Source: a virus
Reading direction: 5' to 3' (one strand)
DNA length: 36,484 bases
Virus record (IMG/VR): IMGVR_UViG_3300030090_002511
Location: 1 to 36,484 of that record
Of this stretch, positions 8,692-32,876 are shown one piece after another. A model generated the notes under the pieces. It did no database searches, had not been told where the DNA came from, and saw only the letters and a program-made list of their open reading frames with translations. The translations under genes and the position numbers were made by a program. Each line of letters begins with the position of its first letter. Positions within the stretch are counted from its first letter, which is position 1.

Positions 8692-11600
8692 TTATCCCTT
8701 GAGTGCCTTAACTTCTGCACTTAATTCCTGCACCGCTTTTAGTAGCGGAATTACCAGTTGGCTGTATTCAACCGATAACTTGCCATTCGGGTCTTCAGCA
8801 ACCAAGTTGCAGTCGTAGCCAACTTCATCCATCGCAGCTTGTACGTCCTGCGCGATTAAGCCGATGCAAGTCGTTTCGTCATCAGCCGGTCTATCGTTAG
8901 CTGGTTTTGTGATTGTCTTGTAAACAGCTTCTTGTGCCTCAACTGCCGGTGATACCAAGCGACGTTCAGTTACTTCCTTAACTGCTGGAGCGGCTGGTGT
9001 GATCACGCGGACTTCAGTTCGTGCTGCAACCGCTGGTGATACCAAGCGGCGTTCAGTACGTTCCGGTTCAGCTTCCCGTACAACAACCATCTTGCGAACT
9101 TCTTCCTGCGCTTCTTGAACAACGTACTCTTCGCAGTCAGGGCATTTGTAAATCTCTTGTTCGGTAACTGCCGCTTTAGCTTCTACTGCTGGTTCTATTT
9201 CATTGCCGTCTTCATCAAGAACCGCCTCTTTAGCTTCAACAGCCGATTCAATGATTTTCACTCGCGGAGTACCGTCCTCGTTAACTACTGGGTGTTCGAT
9301 GTACAGCGGCGTGCGCTCAATGCGAGTGACTGTTTCGGTAGTGACTTTGCGAACGTATGTGTCGCCTTCGCCCTTAACCATCTCCACCTTTTCGACTTCC
9401 TCAGTGACTTCCTTCTCGTCACACTTTTGGCGTTCGCCTTTAATCTCCTCGCGGGCTTCTTGAACTACACGTTCTTCTGTAACTTCTTCAACAGCCGGTA
9501 TCACCACATCCTCGTAAACCGCTTCTTTCGCTGGGTGTTCAATTGTCTCTGTGACTTCCTCAACAGCTTCGTGTGCTTCAACAACGACAACGTCCTCATA
9601 CACGGCTTCAGCAGCCTCAACGGCTGGCTCAACAAGTTCTTGACGTTCAATTTCTCGGAACCGACTTTCTAGAAGTTCTTCAGGATAGTCGGCTGGGTTT
9701 AATCGCTTAAACGTAACTGGTTGCAGTTTTTCAATGAACGATAAACCAACGTTTGAGTTTTCAATATCACGCTTGATGCGACGATCAGAGTAGGTAGCAA
9801 ATGCCACCTGACCTTTGATCGCTGTCATGCTGGTGTTGCCGAGCGCTACTGTGTTAGTTCCAATTCCGTTTGTAGAATAACCAATCGCTATTTCATTAGA
9901 AATTCCGCTAGCAGCAGACGCTTCTGTATCAGAACCAATGTATACAGATGTATCAACATCAATGACATTATTAGTTCCCCCAGCATAACGTGCCGCACTA
10001 AAACCAATAGCAACATTATCATCACCATTCGCATTGGTTAGTTCAGTTAATGCTGCATACCCAATAGCTACGTTATTGCTTTCTGCGCCGTCAGCAGCGT
10101 CTAGTGCGTACGTGCCTACGGCTACGTTGTTAATTCCAGAAGTCAACAAAGCTGCGGCTGAATTACCAAGCGCCACATTTCGCGAGCCGGTTGCTGCTTT
10201 AAGTGCATTGTATCCTACCGCAGTACAATTATTACCTGTGTCAGTAGTGCCAGCCGCAAGCGCACTTCCTGCTTCGTAGCCAATTAGTACATTGCCTGTT
10301 CCATCTGTAATTGCGTCACCGGCCAAAGCACCAATAGCCAAGTTATTTGCACTAGCACCGTTTTGCAGCTTTAGTGCGTCACGACCAATTGCGACACAAT
10401 TGTCTGCGCCACTTGCTTCAGCGCCTAAAGCGTCCGATCCAATCGCGACATTGTAATGCGAATCAGCAACCATGTTGTCAGCCGCTTGAAAACCGATGGC
10501 GACGTTGTAATCGCTGGTTGTCATATTTTGGCCGGCCAAATATCCTATCAACACGTTGCCGGGGCCGTCAGTCAGGTCGTAGCCAGCGCCATAACCTACT
10601 AAAACGTTGTGATCGCCAGTCATTGCTGCGGCACTGTTTCCTGCAGAAGAACCAGCAAACGTACCAATCACGGTATTGCTACCACCAGTGCCTTTAGCAA
10701 ACGCCCGATCACCAACAGCTACGTTGTAATTACCAGCTGCTGCGCTGCAAGCGAGATAACCAACAGCCGTATTGCCAGTAGCGTTCGTAATACTATCACC
10801 CGCAAGTCCACCAATTGCGGTGTTTGTGACGTTGGCGTTTTGGCTGAGTAATGCGTCTTTACCAATGGCTACACAATAAGCTGCGCCAGATGTTTCTGAA
10901 CTCATCGCAGCACTACCAATAGCCACATTGTAGTTTTCATTACCATTTGCAGCGTCCAATGCCAAGTAGCCAATGGCAACATTAGCGGCATTGTTTGTCA
11001 TTAACTGACCAGCACCTTTGCCGATAATCACGTTTTCATAACCCGTCGTAATGACCTCACCAGCTTTAAAACCAATGCAAGTGTTACTATCGCCGGTTCC
11101 TTGGTGAAACGTCAGCGTAACCCCAGAGGAATGAGTTTGTGTCGAAGCAATTGCGAGTTCAAAGTGTGTTGCGTCGGTTACTGAAGCAACGTAATTACCA
11201 TACGGAATGCCGTTACCGAATACTGATTGGCCAGCCAGTATGTTACTGGTTGAATCGACCTCTACGGTTGTTGAACTGGTTGTTGTTTCGCAAGTACCGT
11301 TGGAAAATGAGGAACTTTTGTATGCGCGATAACCAAGGACTGTATTATTCGCAGCGTTACCAGTGTTACGGCCAGCTTCATGCCCAACCCAAGTGTTGTA
11401 ATTATCTGTATTTGCGTAACCCGCTGAAGTGCCTATTGCAGTAGATCCCGTGCCTAGCTTGTTGTGAAACAACGCTTCCCAACCAACTCCGACATTTCCC
11501 ACGTTGCCGTTTTGGCCAAGTAACGCACGATAACCAATCGCAATACATCCATCAGCACCCGTTGTTTCATTTTCTAACGCACTTGACCCAATAGCGACGT

Positions 11601-13275
11601 GTTGGGTCACGCCACTAGCTGCATAAAGAAGTGCGTTGTAGCCAATTGCTACGTTGTTGCTTGAGTCAGTTAAGTTGCCTCCAGCGTTAGCACCGACTAA
11701 CGTGTTAGAAGCACCAGTAGTTAAATCGAAGCCAGTACTATGTCCCAGTACAGTATTGTAATCACCAGTAACCGTGCCTGAGCCAGCGGCGTTGTACCCC
11801 ACGAAAACGCCTTTGGTTGCATTTGTTAAAGCCTTCGCTGCTTGAAAGCCGACGGCTGTGTTTTGTCCGCCGCCGTTTTGTGTTTTAAGCGCGTAATAAC
11901 CAACAGCCACATTACCATCAGTACCACTTGTTTCGGTGTTCAGCGCAAACGAACCAATAGCTACGTTGTAGTTTTCGCCATCATTTGCGTTAGCAAACGC
12001 CCGATGACCAATCGATACATTGTCGTAATTATTCGTAATTGCTGTTCCAGATTGATATCCAATAGCAATATTTTGATTCCCCGAAGTAGTTGCATCAAGT
12101 GAGTAACTGCCAATTGCTATGTTGTAGTTGCCGGTAGCGTTGTCAGAATTATCGCCAGCACTATCGGCGGCTTGTAGTGCGCTGTAACCAATCGCAATAC
12201 AATCGTCTGTGGTGGTTGCGTATAAGCCAGCACTTCGGCCAAGGTATATGTTACGACTTCCGGTTGTGCTGTACCCAGCAGAAGCACCCAGTGCAACATT
12301 GTTATCACCACCAGTACCCGCGCTAGTACCCGTTCCTACAAGCGAAGCAAGTGTGTTTGATCCAACCGCCGTGTTACTTGAACCTTCCGAACAAGCACCC
12401 AACGCATTAAACCCAACCGCAGTCGTGTACGCTGCACTCGTTGCTGCGTATGCTGCACCCGATCCGACTGCTACTGCATTCGATCCGGTGAATACATTCA
12501 ATGCACTTGAACCAATTGCTGTATTGTCATCCCCGCAGTCGCTGTTGCTGATCGCTGCATAACCCATTACTGTGTTACGCACACCGTCGACAGTTCCAGA
12601 TAGTGCTTGTGAACCGACGGCAGTATTATTTGAACCGCTTGTAGCTGCGTCTAATGCGCCATAACCAACGGCAGTACAATCAGCTTGAGTTCCTGCTACA
12701 CCAAGTGCGTCATAACCAATTGCTGTTAATCGTGCTGCGCTAGTCGCTGCGTCTGCTGCAAAAGCACCTACTGCTACTGCGTCTGATCCGGTATAAGATA
12801 ATAGTGCATCATAACCAATAGCGACGTTGAAGTCAGTAGTAGTGACTGAACTTAATGCTGAGTCACCAACAGCGGTGTTTTTCGCGCCCTCTGTAATTGC
12901 GTCTCCAGCGTATGCGCCCACGGCTGTGTTTCTATCGGCGTCCGCGTGATTAAGGTCGTTTAACGCATCATAACCAATGGCTGTGTTTCGTGTAGACGTT
13001 GAAAGGCTTGCGGCTAAAGCGTTTGTGCCAACAGCCGTGCTTGATGCAGCACCACCTAAACCGTGACCGATGTCGAGTGAACCAACTGTGACTGAGCCGC
13101 CTACAGACAAATTTAATTTGTTAGCGGAGTCTTCTGTAATTTTTACGTTACTACTCCCAGTAGAAGCGGCCCACTCCATAACATCAGAAGATGCGCCATC
13201 CGACTTAACAATCGGTTCGTTCTCGAAAGAAGTCCCTGTTGTACCTATAGAAGATTGTTGTGTAATTCTAGCCAT
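8692..13275 (-). CDS. Giant tail fibre: adhesin-type head repeats plus S74 chaperone
   Basis: 1527 residues. Residues about 60-1150 are several dozen degenerate repeats of the form N-x-A-[IV]-G-x-x-A-L, the pattern of trimeric autotransporter (YadA/Hag) head domains that fold as left-handed beta-rolls. A Ser/Thr-rich insert at about residues 655-727 (NILAGQSVFGNGIPYGNYVA) breaks the repeats. At residue 1163 begins SDRRIKRDI, the peptidase S74 self-cleavage motif (Ser1163, Lys1168), so the C-terminal part is an intramolecular trimerisation chaperone probably released after folding. The chaperone is split by a roughly 250-residue acidic insert of EAVYEDVV and PAVEA repeats containing a CPDC pair; CIGLIAQDVQ resumes near 1470. 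It presumably binds the host surface. Confidence 0.85.
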   Translation of the reverse strand: MARITQQSSIGTTGTSFENEPIVKSDGASSDVMEWAASTGSSNVKITEDSANKLNLSVGGSVTVGSLDIGHGLGGAASSTAVGTNALAASLSTSTRNTAIGYDALNDLNHADADRNTAVGAYAGDAITEGAKNTAVGDSALSSVTTTDFNVAIGYDALLSYTGSDAVAVGAFAADAATSAARLTAIGYDALGVAGTQADCTAVGYGALDAATSGSNNTAVGSQALSGTVDGVRNTVMGYAAISNSDCGDDNTAIGSSALNVFTGSNAVAVGSGAAYAATSAAYTTAVGFNALGACSEGSSNTAVGSNTLASLVGTGTSAGTGGDNNVALGASAGYSTTGSRNIYLGRSAGLYATTTDDCIAIGYSALQAADSAGDNSDNATGNYNIAIGSYSLDATTSGNQNIAIGYQSGTAITNNYDNVSIGHRAFANANDGENYNVAIGSFALNTETSGTDGNVAVGYYALKTQNGGGQNTAVGFQAAKALTNATKGVFVGYNAAGSGTVTGDYNTVLGHSTGFDLTTGASNTLVGANAGGNLTDSSNNVAIGYNALLYAASGVTQHVAIGSSALENETTGADGCIAIGYRALLGQNGNVGNVGVGWEALFHNKLGTGSTAIGTSAGYANTDNYNTWVGHEAGRNTGNAANNTVLGYRAYKSSSFSNGTCETTTSSTTVEVDSTSNILAGQSVFGNGIPYGNYVASVTDATHFELAIASTQTHSSGVTLTFHQGTGDSNTCIGFKAGEVITTGYENVIIGKGAGQLMTNNAANVAIGYLALDAANGNENYNVAIGSAAMSSETSGAAYCVAIGKDALLSQNANVTNTAIGGLAGDSITNATGNTAVGYLACSAAAGNYNVAVGDRAFAKGTGGSNTVIGTFAGSSAGNSAAAMTGDHNVLVGYGAGYDLTDGPGNVLIGYLAGQNMTTSDYNVAIGFQAADNMVADSHYNVAIGSDALGAEASGADNCVAIGRDALKLQNGASANNLAIGALAGDAITDGTGNVLIGYEAGSALAAGTTDTGNNCTAVGYNALKAATGSRNVALGNSAAALLTSGINNVAVGTYALDAADGAESNNVAIGYAALTELTNANGDDNVAIGFSAARYAGGTNNVIDVDTSVYIGSDTEASAASGISNEIAIGYSTNGIGTNTVALGNTSMTAIKGQVAFATYSDRRIKRDIENSNVGLSFIEKLQPVTFKRLNPADYPEELLESRFREIERQELVEPAVEAAEAVYEDVVVVEAHEAVEEVTETIEHPAKEAVYEDVVIPAVEEVTEERVVQEAREEIKGERQKCDEKEVTEEVEKVEMVKGEGDTYVRKVTTETVTRIERTPLYIEHPVVNEDGTPRVKIIESAVEAKEAVLDEDGNEIEPAVEAKAAVTEQEIYKCPDCEEYVVQEAQEEVRKMVVVREAEPERTERRLVSPAVAARTEVRVITPAAPAVKEVTERRLVSPAVEAQEAVYKTITKPANDRPADDETTCIGLIAQDVQAAMDEVGYDCNLVAEDPNGKLSVEYSQLVIPLLKAVQELSAEVKALKG

Positions 13276-13706: not shown

Positions 13707-15128
13707 TTAAGCCGTACGACGACGCAAGAAGGATATAGGCAAGCAGTATCGTGTATCGCCAGCGATACCACCAATAACAGCCTGTGAGATAAACTTCAAG
13801 TAGTCACCATAAGTGTTAAGCTCAGTACCAGCAGCATCAGTCAATGGATTTGACCCGCTACCTGTCGGTATCAAGAACTGGTCAGTAAGGTGAACCTCAC
13901 CGTTCCACTTCATGTCGTAGAACTTCTTGGCACTCATGTTCTTAGACGCAAACTCTTTGGGCGGCGGCCCAACTTGAATCGTCTTGAACGCATCAGCACC
14001 TACCAAGAACGCAATCTCATGCGAACCTACCGTATCGGAAGACGCTTCAATCTTCGTATAGTTCGGATTAGGTATAACCTTACCAGTAGCGCTATCGACT
14101 GACTGCGGTGCAATAAAGTCACCATTAGCAGAGAAGCGTAACGGATACGGGTCAAACTTAGCGGTAATCTTACCAAACAAGTCGCCAGCAAAACCATCTT
14201 GCAGAAGGTTCATGTTAGCTGGAGCAAGCTGGGTAGCTGCACCAGTACCAGTACCAGTTCGCAAGTTGGTATCCCACAACAACGAAGCCCAAGCCTCTGT
14301 AGAACAGATAAGAACATACTTGCCCTTAATCATTTCAGAAGTTTTTGGAACACCATATTGACGATCAAACGTAGGAGCTTGAATATCCTCCTGCAACACG
14401 AGCATAGCCTTGAAGAGTTCCTTCAAAGACAGCGCCTCTGACACAGCAGTACCAGTACCGCCAGTAGCTATATCGTTACGGAACGTATTACCAGCCGAGA
14501 CTGTAATAGTTTGTCCAGCGCTACCGCCAGTAATAACATCAGTAGAGCTATCTCCACCATTCTCAACCTTACGTATGTCCGACTGAGCTAACTGACGTTT
14601 ACGTGTATGCACATCAGCGTGATCAACTTGTGAGCTAAGCCCCTTACCAGAAATATAAAGATCTGGCGCTTGATAGTACATCAGCGTACGAATAAAAACG
14701 TTATTCGCGCATTGAATCTGACGTACAATATCAGACTGAGCGTAGCTTAGATGATCTCTCCAGAAGGCTTCAAAGTTGTTTAAGAAGCGGAAACGGTTAG
14801 ACTCAAATCGATGCATACCGAGAGCAGCGTCTTCCGTGCGCTCACCAACTGTGAACTGATCTTTCTTCGGATAGTTCGTAAGAACTTCTGGCATGAAGGT
14901 CATACGTAATACCGGAGAGGGCGTTGGAGTTGTACCCGTCAGGGTATTTCCCATGTTAGGCTCCCACTTAATCGAACCAAAAAGTGTATCGTACACATTC
15001 CACTTCGGATAAAGGGCAACCTCGTTTTTTGCTAGATAAAAGTCTAGCTTCTTGAAATTACCGCCAGTTGGGCTGGCGGCATCAGCAGCGGCATTAGCTA
15101 CCGATGCTGCTGTTACTGAACTAGGCAT
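13707..15128 (-). CDS. Major capsid protein
   Basis: 473 residues. Gene order (terminase, portal, scaffold, then this), its own long leader and a terminator at its end all mark the major capsid gene. Features fit an HK97-fold shell protein: a Pro/Phe-rich segment (LRMTFMPEVLTNYPKK), a helical spine-like region (FWRDHLSYAQSDIVRQIQCA), an internal SLKELFKAMLVLQEDIQAPT helix, and a C-terminal beta part. No protease-type N-terminal delta domain is evident. The stretch before the ATG is A/T-rich (ATATAAAACATT) without a Shine-Dalgarno, odd for a gene that must be highly expressed. I did not see a specific family signature. Confidence 0.75.
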   Translation of the reverse strand: MPSSVTAASVANAAADAASPTGGNFKKLDFYLAKNEVALYPKWNVYDTLFGSIKWEPNMGNTLTGTTPTPSPVLRMTFMPEVLTNYPKKDQFTVGERTEDAALGMHRFESNRFRFLNNFEAFWRDHLSYAQSDIVRQIQCANNVFIRTLMYYQAPDLYISGKGLSSQVDHADVHTRKRQLAQSDIRKVENGGDSSTDVITGGSAGQTITVSAGNTFRNDIATGGTGTAVSEALSLKELFKAMLVLQEDIQAPTFDRQYGVPKTSEMIKGKYVLICSTEAWASLLWDTNLRTGTGTGAATQLAPANMNLLQDGFAGDLFGKITAKFDPYPLRFSANGDFIAPQSVDSATGKVIPNPNYTKIEASSDTVGSHEIAFLVGADAFKTIQVGPPPKEFASKNMSAKKFYDMKWNGEVHLTDQFLIPTGSGSNPLTDAAGTELNTYGDYLKFISQAVIGGIAGDTRYCLPISFLRRRTA

Positions 15129-15155: not shown

Positions 15156-15187
15156 AAAAAAGCGAAAGACATCTCTGCGCGTCTTTC
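15156..15187 (-). terminator. Terminator-like hairpin just upstream of the capsid gene
   Basis: On the minus strand GAAAGAC (15187-15181) and GTCTTTC (15170-15164) form a perfect 7-bp stem around a 10-base loop, followed by GC and six T. It ends 27 bases before the capsid ATG. By form it is an intrinsic terminator, but a full stop here would silence the capsid gene, so an attenuator or an RNA-processing/stabilising hairpin is more likely. Confidence 0.6.
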
Positions 15188-15224
15188 CTACGCTGCGATG
15201 CCCTTCGCCTATTAGAAGCAAGTC

Positions 15225-15263
15225 TTACTAAGTTTCCTCAGTAAAGTGGGTATGCCCTTACCC
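15225..15263 (-). promoter_or_regulatory. Two hairpins in the capsid mRNA leader
   Basis: On the minus strand GGGTA-AGGGCA-TACCC (15263-15248) is a 5-bp hairpin. Four bases later TTACTGAG-GAAA-CTTAGTAA (15244-15225) forms an 8-bp stem (one G-U) capped by a GAAA tetraloop. With the downstream hairpin at 15187-15164 they give the capsid leader three consecutive stems. Confidence 0.6.
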
Positions 15264-15275
15264 GAATTGAAGCAC

Positions 15276-15320
15276 GCTTAAAAACAAGCACAATCCATGC
15301 CAAGGGCGCTATCTTCTAAA
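15276..15320 (-). promoter_or_regulatory. Candidate sigma-54-type promoter for the capsid unit
   Basis: On the minus strand TTGGCATGGATTGTGCTT begins at 15303, with GG and GC separated by ten bases as in -24/-12 promoters; the -12 box is TGTGC rather than TTTGC/CTTGC. Predicted start near 15276. A TTTAGAAGATAG box begins at 15320, 17 bases upstream of TTGG. The same box at the same spacing precedes the plus-strand candidate at 31383. It overlaps the scaffold stop codon. Confidence 0.5.
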
Positions 15321-16479
15321 GGTTCATCCACTCTGGTATACTGAGATCATCGTTAGAAGATTCAGTAGCTCCTACGCTAGCCTTACGCTTAGCTTTTGGC
15401 TCCTTACGCACTTCTTCTTTTACAGCGGCTTTCTCAGAATCTGCGTGAGCAGCCTGTAGTTGCAGCGTGACGAACAAGTTAGAAGCAAGCTCAGCAAGCG
15501 GATGCTTCTGAAATGTCTTCGGCAATGCGTTAGAGAATGTGGTTTTTATCTGCTGGATTGTAGTTGACCCTACGTTAGGCAGCACCAGTTCTTGCTTTGC
15601 GACGGCATCGTCAGTTGTCCATGCGAAGTTAGCTTTCTGTTCGCGGTCTAGAAGCGTGACAGCATCTTGGTAAGTGTCTTTGTACGATTTGCTGACGTTA
15701 TCGAGTTCGCTGTTGAATTTGCGGCTAAGTCCTGCTGCTTCTTGCATGGCCATCTCCACATCAATCTCTGATTGCTGCGTAGGCTTGAAGGCATCCTTAC
15801 CGATAACGAGCTGACCTGCATCGTTATAGCCTTCGATGTTCTGCCAGTTCTCGCCGTTGCGTATCTTGATGAGCTGCGCACGCCAATGCTGCTGTTCCTG
15901 CTGAGCCTTGGACATATTAGCGTACGTGTCCTTGTACTCGTCGCTCAGAATGTAAGCGTCGGGGTGATCGGCTGTCGTGACTTCTTTTGCCGCCTGTTGC
16001 TTGACGGCCTCCATCTCCTCTTGCAGCTTGTTGCTCTTCTCGGATAGCTTGCTGAAGTGTTCAAACGCCTCATTAGACATTTGCTTCAGATACTTCGCGT
16101 CTTCCTCGCTGAACTTACTGTAGTCGCGACCTTTCGGAGTCTTCAGCTTTCCAAGGTTTTCAGATAACGCTGATACTTCTTCACCTTCTTCACCATCCTC
16201 TTCATGTCCTTCTTCATCAGCTCTGTCAGACGTTCCTGCGTTATCCCCTCCTCCATCGCTATCTCCGGTATCTGATCCTTGTTCAACGACATCGCTATCA
16301 GCATTATCTGATTGTGATGTAGTCTCCTCAGATACATCTCCCGATACGTCTGCTTCTCCTTCGTCGTCATCTATTAGTTCTCCTTCAAGTGGATTAAACC
16401 CTGTGTTCAAGTTGTCATCAGCTTCTGCCTGTTGTGTCAATGACTCCTCTAATTCCGTGTTCTGTAATGATGTTTGCAT
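15316..16479 (-). CDS. Scaffolding protein
   Basis: 387 residues lying between portal and capsid genes. The N-terminal 115 residues are very acidic and low-complexity (ELIDDDEGEADVSGDVSEE). The middle is helical, with coiled-coil-like LSEKSNKLQEEMEAVKQQAA. The C-terminus is Lys-rich (RKEPKAKRKASVG) before a short SIPEWMNL tail, matching the common scaffold plan in which a basic C-terminal end binds the capsid protein. It would drive procapsid assembly and then leave. It overlaps the upstream 88-residue gene by 62 bases in another frame. No protease domain is seen. Confidence 0.75.
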   Translation of the reverse strand: MQTSLQNTELEESLTQQAEADDNLNTGFNPLEGELIDDDEGEADVSGDVSEETTSQSDNADSDVVEQGSDTGDSDGGGDNAGTSDRADEEGHEEDGEEGEEVSALSENLGKLKTPKGRDYSKFSEEDAKYLKQMSNEAFEHFSKLSEKSNKLQEEMEAVKQQAAKEVTTADHPDAYILSDEYKDTYANMSKAQQEQQHWRAQLIKIRNGENWQNIEGYNDAGQLVIGKDAFKPTQQSEIDVEMAMQEAAGLSRKFNSELDNVSKSYKDTYQDAVTLLDREQKANFAWTTDDAVAKQELVLPNVGSTTIQQIKTTFSNALPKTFQKHPLAELASNLFVTLQLQAAHADSEKAAVKEEVRKEPKAKRKASVGATESSNDDLSIPEWMNL

Positions 16480-23758: not shown

Positions 23759-23764
23759 ACATTA

Positions 23765-23923
23765 TTATTCCTGTTTCCCCCCTAGGAAACTGTTGGAAGA
23801 AGAATTTTGCTGTGCCGCCCAGTAACGAAGCAACGGAGTGTTTTCGCAGAGCGTGATAGTATCGGTCGAGAAGTTGTTGTCCATACCCCCGCCAAATAGC
23901 AATTCCCGTGCCACGGCGCTCAT
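23765..23923 (-). CDS. 52-residue small ORF with strong ribosome binding site
   Basis: MSAVARELLFGGGMDNNFST begins at 23923 with GGAGG seven bases upstream, overlapping the preceding small ORF as ATGA. It ends six bases before the 1173-residue gene. The peptide is soluble, with LLRYWAAQQNSSSNSF near its end. A competing longer frame (23730-23960) overlaps the large gene and lacks a ribosome site, so I prefer this one. Function unknown. Confidence 0.5.
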   Translation of the reverse strand: MSAVARELLFGGGMDNNFSTDTITLCENTPLLRYWAAQQNSSSNSFLGGKQE

Positions 23924-28300: not shown

Positions 28301-28828
28301 ATGAACATATTCACAGTAGATCACGACCCTACGGTAGCAGCTCAGCAGCTATGTGATAAGCACATCGTGAAGATGCCGCTAGAAACTGCACAGATGCTAT
28401 GCTCTGCGTTCGACCCACTAGACCTAGCGCCGTACAAGCGCGTACACTACAACCATCCGTGTACGCAATGGGCTAGGCAATCGGAAGCCAACTTTGATTG
28501 GCTTGTAACTCACGGCCTTGCGCTCTGCGCTGAGTACACCAAGCGCTACGGTAGCGATATGATACAGCACGCCAGCGAAGTACCTATCAAATGGTGCAAG
28601 GCTATGAAACGTATGCTGTCGTTCCCAGACAAGGGACTAACCGAGCATCCGCAATGCTTCGGAGACTACCAAGACAGATGCTACGTTCCCGGCGATCCCA
28701 TCGCAGGATACCGTCGCTACTATCGCACAGCCAAGCGTCGCTTCGCCCGATGGGCTACACCCACAGCGCAGGAGCCGTCATGGTTCAACGAGAACGTAGA
28801 CCTTGCACTACGGGAGGGCCAGCTATGA
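28301..28828 (+). CDS. Conserved-type phage protein (CDKH-VKMPLE family), function unknown
   Basis: 175 residues. MNIFTVDHDPTVAAQQLCDK, HIVKMPLETAQMLCSAF, then NHPCTQWARQSEANFDWL and ALCAEYTKRYG are the hallmarks of a protein widespread in cyanophages and other phages. It is sometimes loosely annotated as a DNA repair protein, but I do not know an established activity. The many invariant Cys, His, Asp and Trp suggest an enzyme or a metal site. First gene after the promoter at 28208; no Shine-Dalgarno is seen (GACAACAACAT before ATG). ATGA-coupled to the next gene. Confidence 0.7.
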   Translation: MNIFTVDHDPTVAAQQLCDKHIVKMPLETAQMLCSAFDPLDLAPYKRVHYNHPCTQWARQSEANFDWLVTHGLALCAEYTKRYGSDMIQHASEVPIKWCKAMKRMLSFPDKGLTEHPQCFGDYQDRCYVPGDPIAGYRRYYRTAKRRFARWATPTAQEPSWFNENVDLALREGQL

Positions 28829-30358: not shown

Positions 30359-30620
30359 CTTCCGCACACCAAGCGGCGCACATAAGATAGGTGACATCGA
30401 CGACGACACGGAGATAGCTATGCTTAGCCCCGGCGATACGACATACGACAAGCGTGACGTAGTGTTCACCAGCGACAAGTCTGAGATGCTTCGGCTACTC
30501 AAGGAAGGCTGGGACGCTATGCTAGGTCGCCACTACCGTGAGCGTAAGGCTCTCGAAACGTTTACGCCCACAGACTACAGCCGCTACCGTGGTTTCACAG
30601 ATCATCTATACCATGACTGA
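30339..30620 (+). CDS. Small hypothetical protein before the AAA+ activator
   Basis: 93 residues, overlapping the previous gene by 20 bases and the AAA+ gene by 8. The sequence is acidic in the middle (IGDIDDDTEIAMLSPGDTTY) with a helical, basic C-terminus. Not recognised. Tight overlap suggests co-translation with the activator. Confidence 0.6.
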   Translation: MSVVRVNFRTPSGAHKIGDIDDDTEIAMLSPGDTTYDKRDVVFTSDKSEMLRLLKEGWDAMLGRHYRERKALETFTPTDYSRYRGFTDHLYHD

Positions 30621-31356
30621 GAAAGAAAGATACCTAGCGTTTGCGCAAGCTGTCCAAGACTACAGCACAGTTGACGCTGCAACAAAGCGCACGGTAGAAG
30701 CTGCCGTCAAGCTAGCGCCGCGCAGCGAACCCGTACTCATCACAGGTGAGACAGGCACAGGTAAGGAACTCATCGCTCGTATACTTCATGGTACACGTAG
30801 CGGTGAGTTCTCTACCGTGAACACGACAGCCGTAACCGATACGCTCTTTGAGAGCGAGCTGTTCGGCCACCTCAAGGGTAGCTTCACCGGCGCTTTTCGA
30901 GACAAGACCGGCCTCGTAGAACACGCCGCCAACGGTACGCTGTTCCTCGATGAGATAGGCGATATGCCCTACGACCTACAGGCCAAGGTGCTACGCTTCA
31001 TCCAGTTCGGCACGTACCGTAGAGTCGGTGACAACGAAGAGCGCACAGCCAACTGCCGAGTTATCGCAGCAACCTGCGCTCCGCTACAAGACCTGATCGC
31101 CTCCGGTCGCTTTCGTAAAGACCTATACTACCGACTCTCCACATTCAACCTACACCTAACTCCCCTACGTGAGCGGCCTTACGATGCTGTTCACTACGTA
31201 GGCGAGAACCTAGATAAAAGTATTGAAGACTCCGACTACGATACCTTCCTAGACTACGCTAGCAATGCGACCTTAGAAGGTAACTACCGTGAGCTAGAAC
31301 AAGCGATCCTACGATACGACGTTCTAAAAGAATTACCGGCACAGTTTAGAAGATAG
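30613..31356 (+). CDS. Sigma-54 activator-type AAA+ ATPase (NtrC/PspF central domain)
   Basis: 247 residues, starting in overlap with the previous stop. It carries the complete bacterial enhancer-binding AAA+ core: Walker A GETGTGKE (45-52), the ESELFGHLKG block, a GAFTGA-loop variant GSFTGA (89-94) which contacts sigma-54, Walker B TLFLDEIGDM (109-118), sensor I RVIAAT (149-154), arginine-finger region FRKDLYYRL (167-175) and a sensor II GNYREL (223-228). It ends soon after the lid, with no response-regulator domain and no C-terminal Fis-type helix-turn-helix. As known for this family it should use ATP to open sigma-54 RNA polymerase complexes. A sigma-54-like promoter lies 27 bases beyond its stop. 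Confidence 0.9.
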   Translation: MTEKERYLAFAQAVQDYSTVDAATKRTVEAAVKLAPRSEPVLITGETGTGKELIARILHGTRSGEFSTVNTTAVTDTLFESELFGHLKGSFTGAFRDKTGLVEHAANGTLFLDEIGDMPYDLQAKVLRFIQFGTYRRVGDNEERTANCRVIAATCAPLQDLIASGRFRKDLYYRLSTFNLHLTPLRERPYDAVHYVGENLDKSIEDSDYDTFLDYASNATLEGNYRELEQAILRYDVLKELPAQFRR

Positions 31357-31382: not shown

Positions 31383-31400
31383 TTGGCATGAATCTTGCTT
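31383..31400 (+). promoter_or_regulatory. Sigma-54-type promoter (GG-N10-GC)
   Basis: TTGGCATGAATCTTGCTT: TGGCA, five-base spacer region, TTGC; the GG and GC are separated by ten bases exactly as in -24/-12 promoters. Predicted start near 31410, 51 bases before the next ATG. An alternative sigma-70 reading (TTGGCA, 16 bases, TATGGT) is possible and weaker. A 5-bp AGTGC/GCACT hairpin (31414-31435) would lie at the transcript 5' end. Confidence 0.65.
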
Positions 31401-31948: not shown

Positions 31949-32542
31949 ATGGACAACGACACTATAGATATTGTAGTAGGCAAGCTCAAGAAACCTGATC
32001 GTAAGGCAAGCTCTCCGATCAAAGTGAAGCGCTCAACCTACACAGAGACTAGCGCAGAGTCTGTCAAACCTATCATAGACAAGCTCCTAGCTGAACCTAA
32101 AGACGTATTCGTACCGTCACTTGGCACAGGCTACACACCCCGTACGCTACTCGTTAAGATAAACGATGCGCTACTTTGGTACGAAGAAAACACCGACGAG
32201 CCAGAGGACTACATCTTACTGCGCTCTCAAATTTCCTCACGTATCATACAAGACGACGAGAATCCCGGTGTTCTAGTGTACTTCAAGCGTGGTATGCGTA
32301 AGATGCGCCGTAAAAACTACGAAGGCAAAGCGCTAGAGTTTCACACAACCGACAGCTCACTCTGGCGACATAACGTAGTGCGCTGGTTAGAGTCTGCCAC
32401 GGAAGGTAAGATGTTTGAGAGTGGTAACATAGAAGAGCCGCTAACAGATGACGACGAGCGCTGGCTACGTGACACGCTGGCTACGATGGCTCCCGATGCG
32501 GAGATGTTATTCAAGGACAATAGCTTCCGCATCATACGATGA
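31949..32542 (+). CDS. Hypothetical protein
   Basis: 197 residues starting MDNDTIDIVVGKLKKPDRKA. A GTG-initiated longer frame would begin inside the upstream hairpin and is rejected. The sequence has a basic linker, then LIKINDALLWYEENTDEPED-like helical parts and a charged domain ending DAEMLFKDNSFRIIR. No motif is recognised. ATGA-coupled to the next ORF. Confidence 0.65.
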   Translation: MDNDTIDIVVGKLKKPDRKASSPIKVKRSTYTETSAESVKPIIDKLLAEPKDVFVPSLGTGYTPRTLLVKINDALLWYEENTDEPEDYILLRSQISSRIIQDDENPGVLVYFKRGMRKMRRKNYEGKALEFHTTDSSLWRHNVVRWLESATEGKMFESGNIEEPLTDDDERWLRDTLATMAPDAEMLFKDNSFRIIR

Positions 32543-32616
32543 GCGCATCAACTTTCGGTTGTCTGTTCTGGACGGTAGTCATCATAGCTTTTTGGTACAA
32601 CTACATTAAAGAATGA
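32539..32616 (+). CDS. 25-residue membrane micro-protein
   Basis: MSASTFGCLFWTVVIIAFWY then NYIKE. One hydrophobic helix, ATGA-coupled to genes on both sides, with no intergenic space. The double coupling and clear membrane character support a real small membrane protein, function unknown. Confidence 0.6.
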   Translation: MSASTFGCLFWTVVIIAFWYNYIKE

Positions 32617-32876
32617 CGATAGAAGAACTACTGAACTGCGACATCGCAGAGCTGGAAGAGATGAGTGACGACGAGCTACGTGAGCATTTCAAGCCTTACC
32701 TAGCTGTAACGCAGCCTGACCCTAACGTGTCAGTTGCAAAACCTAAACGTAAGAAAAGCTCAGCGATGAGCAAAAAGAAAAAACAAACACTAGAAGAACA
32801 GATGCAGGAGCTAGCTAAGCTGAATGGCATAGACCTCGACAACGCATCTGACAACCTGCCCTCTAACCTACGATGA
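32613..32876 (+). CDS. Small charged hypothetical protein
   Basis: 87 residues. An acidic N-terminus (LLNCDIAELEEMSDDELREH) is followed by a Lys-rich linker (KPKRKKSSAMSKKKK) and a helix (LEEQMQELAKLNG). ATGA-coupled both ways. It may bind DNA or a nuclease partner; not recognised. Confidence 0.6.
   Translation: MTIEELLNCDIAELEEMSDDELREHFKPYLAVTQPDPNVSVAKPKRKKSSAMSKKKKQTLEEQMQELAKLNGIDLDNASDNLPSNLR

Follow-up and report, generated by a model that had tools for sequence, protein, structure and literature searches.

Usual accounts of phage late genes have them turned on by polymerases of the phage, by sigma factors or by antiterminators of the Q/N type. Among bacterial leader RNAs, the ANTAR dual-hairpin antiterminators (the eutP, nasF and amiE leaders, with EutV, NasR and AmiR) have two small hairpins with similar loops, the second of which excludes an intrinsic terminator. 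In the nas case a sigma-54 promoter lies upstream of the ANTAR leader, as one is predicted to do before most copies of the phage element described here. A C:G pair closing the loop was selected in NasR SELEX (PMC7496416). For sigma-54-driven late genes of phages, the literature yielded only Aeromonas phage phi1422, in which a sigma-54-type regulator gene is noted as an annotation, with no regulon described (PMC3391216).

The window, i.e. the whole stretch of DNA analysed, is an uncultivated phage record of 36,484 nucleotides (IMGVR_UViG_3300030090_002511). Its structural-half genes lie on the minus strand in the order terminase, portal, scaffold-like gene (15316..16479; 387 aa; named by position and present in 18 of 18 compared genomes), a 187-base gap and a 473 aa gene (13707..15128, with its ATG at 15128). 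The product of the last has no match in Pfam or PHROG; from the gene order behind terminase, portal and scaffold-like gene, we infer that it is the major capsid protein. Capsid similarity revealed no relatives among isolated phages, and the terminase matches only Akkermansia phages, at about 30%. Such host hints point weakly to Verrucomicrobia. Elsewhere, the window encodes a 1527 aa repetitive fibre-like protein (8692-13275, minus strand) with many NTAIGY-type repeats; its translation also contains the stretch SDRRIKRDI, as is typical where a protein ends in a chaperone of the S74 type. A pyrimidine dimer DNA glycosylase domain (PF03013) is present at 28301-28828 (plus strand).

The 187-base gap as a whole is predicted to be more stable than shuffled sequences (z -4.69), as is the transcript from a predicted start at 15276 (z -3.14). 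This start, proposed in an earlier sequence-only reading, fits a predicted sigma-54 (-24/-12) promoter, TTGGCATGGATTGTGCT, at 15287..15303 (minus strand), with GG at 15301-15300 and GC at 15289-15288. It has the GG-N10-GC arrangement, matches the TGGCAC-N5-TTGC consensus in 10 of 12 positions and is conserved in position. The same reading placed three hairpins after the start, one with a GAAA loop and the last terminator-like with six Ts, and folding of the minus-strand RNA bears this out: exactly three hairpins are found (15263-15161). Hairpin 1 is at 15248..15263 and hairpin 2, with the GAAA loop, at 15224..15245. Hairpin 3 (15161..15210) stands directly before a U6 tract (15156..15161), an arrangement characteristic of an intrinsic terminator; alone it is predicted to fold with -25.5 kcal/mol (z -5.78), a stability equalled by none of the shuffles, and its core was also flagged by a simple terminator scanner. 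The U run is 27 nt from the capsid ATG, not 22 as had been stated. The capsid ATG does indeed lack a Shine-Dalgarno sequence. This was rejected as a sign of RNA-level control and carries no weight, because most genes in these phages lack one too: such a sequence precedes 6/36 window genes and 1/44 distinct capsid starts.

The sequence-only reading missed that hairpins 1 and 3 share one loop sequence, AAGGGCAU, in two repeated units, all on the minus strand. Unit 1 consists of box 1 (GCUUC, 15269..15273), proposed here as the pseudoknot strand for loop 1, and a stem (P1, equivalent to hairpin 1) of the form GGGU-AAGGGCAU-ACCC, identified by fold and covariation. Unit 2 consists of box 2 (GCUUC, 15215..15219), identified by box/loop pairability, and P2 (15195..15208; GCG-AAGGGCAU-CGC), identified by covariation. 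P2 lies inside the 5' arm of hairpin 3, which can fold by itself as unit 2, and is the proposed antiterminator. The GCY of the boxes is conserved 5' of both stems. Conservation of the hairpins among relatives, set as a test in the earlier reading, holds for hairpin 1 and the base of hairpin 3 but not for hairpin 2. The latter is a spacer between the units in the window's clade only, varying in loop and sequence, and a conserved GAAA hairpin was accordingly rejected.

In 12 capsid relatives, a AAGGGCAT loop is present in hairpin 1 and in the 5' part of hairpin 3, each in a short stem behind a GCTTC or GCTAC box; the stems differ yet stay complementary. The element can be defined as two tandem units, each with a GCYWCU box, a 3-7 bp stem and the loop AAGGGCAU. 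Scanning viral contigs for the pattern produced 64 stretches, of which about 44 are real. At all of the real loci the gene that follows is homologous to the window capsid gene (27-70% identity), whereas chance matches precede unrelated genes. To avoid circularity, loci were also collected by a capsid-profile search in which the motif was not used. Two units precede the capsid ATG in essentially all 64 loci found in this way, with capsids down to about 27% identity and rare loop variants. L149 has one clear and one degenerate unit, and L157 was read from a wrong upstream ATG, the same contig (L056) showing both units. The link between element and capsid is therefore not circular, because loci found by capsid similarity alone carry the element. 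Strong model matches occur once per phage genome, at the capsid; an extra match in L027 was judged to be chance. Rfam gave no match at gathering scores, and membership of a known RNA family was rejected: the best permissive match, whalefall-1, scored 10.7 bits against the 37 needed, and a snoRNA match was also far under threshold.

There is strong evidence, from massive compensatory change in the stems, that the tandem units are a structured RNA. Base pairs 1-3 of P1 are paired in 38/38, 38/38 and 38/38 distinct units, and those of P2 in 33/33, 33/33 and 32/33, with three or four Watson-Crick types at each position; shuffle maxima were 24-29. An alignment of 29 leaders has the named structure paired in 97.3% of cells. 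Its covariation score is 0.654, compared with 0.172 +/- 0.018 in shuffles and at most 0.10 when slid, and it contains 97 double changes compared with 28 in shuffles. Box and loop are also complementary: GCY in the box and RGC in the loop can pair in 72/72 distinct units, as GCU-GGC (56), GCC-GGC (13), GCU-AGC (2) or ACC-GGU (1), and no unpairable combination was seen. This suggests that GCY:RGC pairing closes each unit into an H-type pseudoknot. Box and loop vary little, and the most informative changes are confined to three units; the pseudoknot is thus suggestive rather than conclusive, because independent box/loop changes are few.

In the window and its clade, P2 forms the 5' arm of the terminator, and the two structures are mutually exclusive. 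Any fold in which P2 is retained is predicted to be less stable than the terminator fold of the window by about 11 kcal/mol or more, as calculated for L193, which is the same leader. Unit 2 is likewise part of a terminator in several other clades, and strong U-tailed hairpins on P2 are also present in the distant loci L188, L135 and L151. Amongst 49 leaders, 14 have a competing hairpin with a U tail that at most 5% of shuffles can equal; with no U tract demanded, 19 have a competing fold of some kind at the same level. Several competing hairpins lack a U tract, and these may act on translation instead. Two clades keep the element and have no terminator, namely the short-leader MAVTAV clade, in which only 26-34 nt separate P2 from the ATG, and the MPSSVAADSV clade. 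Attenuation therefore cannot be the only function of the element, and the tandem unit occurs more generally than the terminator does.

The predicted sigma-54 promoter is found just upstream of the element in most clades. A match of at least 10/12 occurs upstream in 43 of 54 distinct capsid leaders, compared with 0.4% of shuffled regions. In 30/47 leaders, the first base of box 1 falls between +2 and +5 of the transcript predicted from this promoter. The MPSSVAADSV clade (L159, L162, L163, L173, L182, L185 and L189) has no sigma-54 site before the capsid, and here the final codons of the scaffold gene run into box 1 and stem 1. The window also encodes a sigma-54 activator consisting of the AAA+ core only (30538..31356, plus strand; PF00158, E 1e-56). 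It is 272 aa as called, with a true start possibly at 30613, and its alignment shows a GxFTGA-type loop and no added C-terminal DNA-binding domain. The gene is present in 7/7 near-relative records over 29 kb (window included), in 20/22 element-bearing records (the two without it being both under 25 kb) and in 11/15 more distant records (the four without it being of 12-41 kb); every tested related record of at least 42 kb encodes a sigma-54 activator. The phage appears to activate the capsid promoter itself.

Two further conserved sigma-54 promoters are predicted in the window, one directly after the activator gene (31384..31399, plus strand) and one before a 1173 aa gene (23898..23913, minus strand). 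The leader of the latter (23760-23890, minus strand) has a different short stretch, resembling GATAGAGATTTGCG, that is common to several relatives; the homologous leaders compared, before genes of 904-1173 aa, were those of G002, G004, G006 and G011. Beside the activator gene, a protein of about 197-198 aa and of unknown function (31949-32542, plus strand) is encoded in 18/18 compared genomes. The order of its predicted helices and strands looks winged-helix-like, and a fold search with it gave no significant match. A small lysine-rich protein of 87 aa (32613-32876, plus strand), present in 17/18 genomes, is a candidate RNA or DNA binder.

Outside viral records, an exact-pattern scan of 84,980 species found 29 stretches. 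With the exception of one contig from Verrucomicrobia, these appear to be due to chance. When 384 Verrucomicrobiae were searched under strict filters with a covariance model in which A-U-closed loops predominate, the element was found only in that contig (CAIWJG010000468.1, from a Verrucomicrobia subdivision 3 MAG). Here, three units lie in a row (L308:8037-8139, minus strand), two with AAGGGCAT and one with a C:G-closed AGGGCA. Phage structural genes were not found in the contig, and the three-unit stretch is absent from 12 family members and the 383 other Verrucomicrobiae searched. These units may be what is left of a phage, or they may represent a decoy RNA or an RNA of the host.

We slightly favour, at a little better than even confidence, the interpretation that the leader is a phage-specific capsid attenuator, made up of the sigma-54 promoter, the tandem element and the terminator, and relieved by a factor that holds both units. 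Host RNA polymerase would transcribe the capsid mRNA from the sigma-54 promoter, turned on by the phage's own AAA+ activator. Units 1 and 2 would fold first in the nascent RNA, each probably as an H-type pseudoknot. By default, with the units unheld, P2 would be consumed by the terminator and transcription would stop ahead of the capsid gene. A putative factor, either a protein or a ligand, could hold both units and so bar unit 2 from the terminator, allowing read-through into the capsid gene. Attenuation or antitermination is the best supported of the options in the sequence-only reading, and strong covariation across divergent phages supports structure at the RNA level, but the conserved feature is the tandem box-plus-hairpin unit and not the three hairpins. 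A bolder proposal, which we regard as tentative and rather less probable, is that the element represents a viral RNA switch of a new class, one that serves a large phage family with no cultivated members. Tandem pseudoknots in the 5' end of the capsid mRNA, bound by a phage protein or small molecule, would then form, with the sigma-54 activator, a two-key lock on capsid synthesis.

Membership of the ANTAR system was at first strongly considered. A host ANTAR protein, NasT/NasR-like, would bind both hairpins and prevent termination, tying the capsid to the nitrogen state of the host. The architecture is similar, with two small tandem hairpins of at least 3 bp, a sigma-54 promoter upstream and, in the window and several clades although not in the two clades without a terminator, a second hairpin overlapping an intrinsic terminator (PMC3369931, PMC7496416). 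If the A-U is counted as closing the stem, most units have an ANTAR-like AGGGCA hexaloop with A1 and G4, and in the deep clade L263 a C:G pair closes the AGGGCA loop of each of the two units. The closing pair is, however, A-U in 28/29 and 26/29 rows of the alignment rather than the selected C:G, which is restricted to L263 and unit 3 of L308. The hexaloop is not kept in the deep clades L231, L234 and L238, loops such as CUGGGC and UUGAGCA lack A1, and the element has an extra conserved box. No ANTAR domain (PF03861) was detected in 35 related virus records or in the element-holding bacterial genome G050; as a control, the same search matched 7/57 Verrucomicrobiae (1e-18 to 1e-21). No canonical dual hairpins were found within 3 kb of two Verrucomicrobia ANTAR genes. 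Our estimate was lowered by the A-U closure, by the additional box, by the altered loops of deep clades and by the lack of an ANTAR gene in the virus records and the one bacterial genome searched, and a true ANTAR target now seems distinctly improbable.

The two clades that keep the element and have no local terminator bear on two other explanations, each of which we consider unlikely, to an equal degree. One is that the element serves processive antitermination of a nut- or put-like kind, or otherwise modifies RNA polymerase for the late operon, the local terminator being one of several stops overcome. Tandem box-plus-hairpin modules near the mRNA 5' end, inside the structural-gene region, are consistent with this. 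By inspection, however, the box is not boxA-like and the loops are not boxB-like, the element is confined to the capsid, neither of the two further sigma-54 promoters having one behind it, and the overlap of P2 with a terminator in many clades suggests local control. The other is that a phage protein binds the element, which would serve as a translational operator or in mRNA stability; autoregulation by the capsid would be one example. This agrees with the capsid gene being always downstream, with the closeness of unit 2 to the ATG in short-leader clades and with some competing hairpins that end beside the ATG with no U tract, but it leaves unexplained the strong U-tailed P2 hairpins of the window's clade and of L188, L135 and L151. 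Another explanation would be a DNA element, for example a site for an activator or a recombinase, or a hairpin promoter like those of phage N4; inverted repeats whose centre is constant, lying near a promoter, are consistent with this. Here, though, the arms change freely yet stay complementary, which is needless for a double-stranded DNA site, and the element lies downstream of the predicted +1 in strict orientation with the gene; we regard this explanation as very improbable indeed.

Under the favoured attenuator model, a widespread, never-cultivated phage family appears to put its coat gene under host sigma-54, its own activator and a leader RNA switch. If this is right, a further family of structured RNAs comes to light, together with a new way of timing capsid production, and the switch is testable in a reporter with no need for phage culture. 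The sigma-54 promoter and the leader attenuator are parts of known kinds, while the RNA element and the combination of these parts appear new.

Comparison with described systems reveals partial likeness to each. The phage element shares with the ANTAR leaders the two similar-loop hairpins and the exclusion of a terminator by the second, and differs from them in its A-U closure, its GCYWCU box with a probable pseudoknot, deep-clade loops without A1/G4, the lack of an ANTAR gene and its viral capsid target. Tandem-aptamer riboswitches with terminator platforms (guanidine-II, glycine) likewise have two like units in tandem followed by an expression platform; unlike these, the phage element has no known ligand, no sequence match and no Rfam match. 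The nut and put antitermination sites of lambda and HK022 are also box-plus-hairpin modules in phage leaders. In contrast to a lambda-type nut site, with boxA and a boxB pentaloop hairpin, the loops here are of 6 or 8 nt and GCYWCU takes the place of boxA, again by inspection, and the element serves one gene only and overlaps a terminator. As in T4 late transcription and other phage late switches, a phage-encoded activator would turn on the structural genes, but here it is the AAA+ core of an enhancer-binding protein and would act at a promoter of the sigma-54 type.
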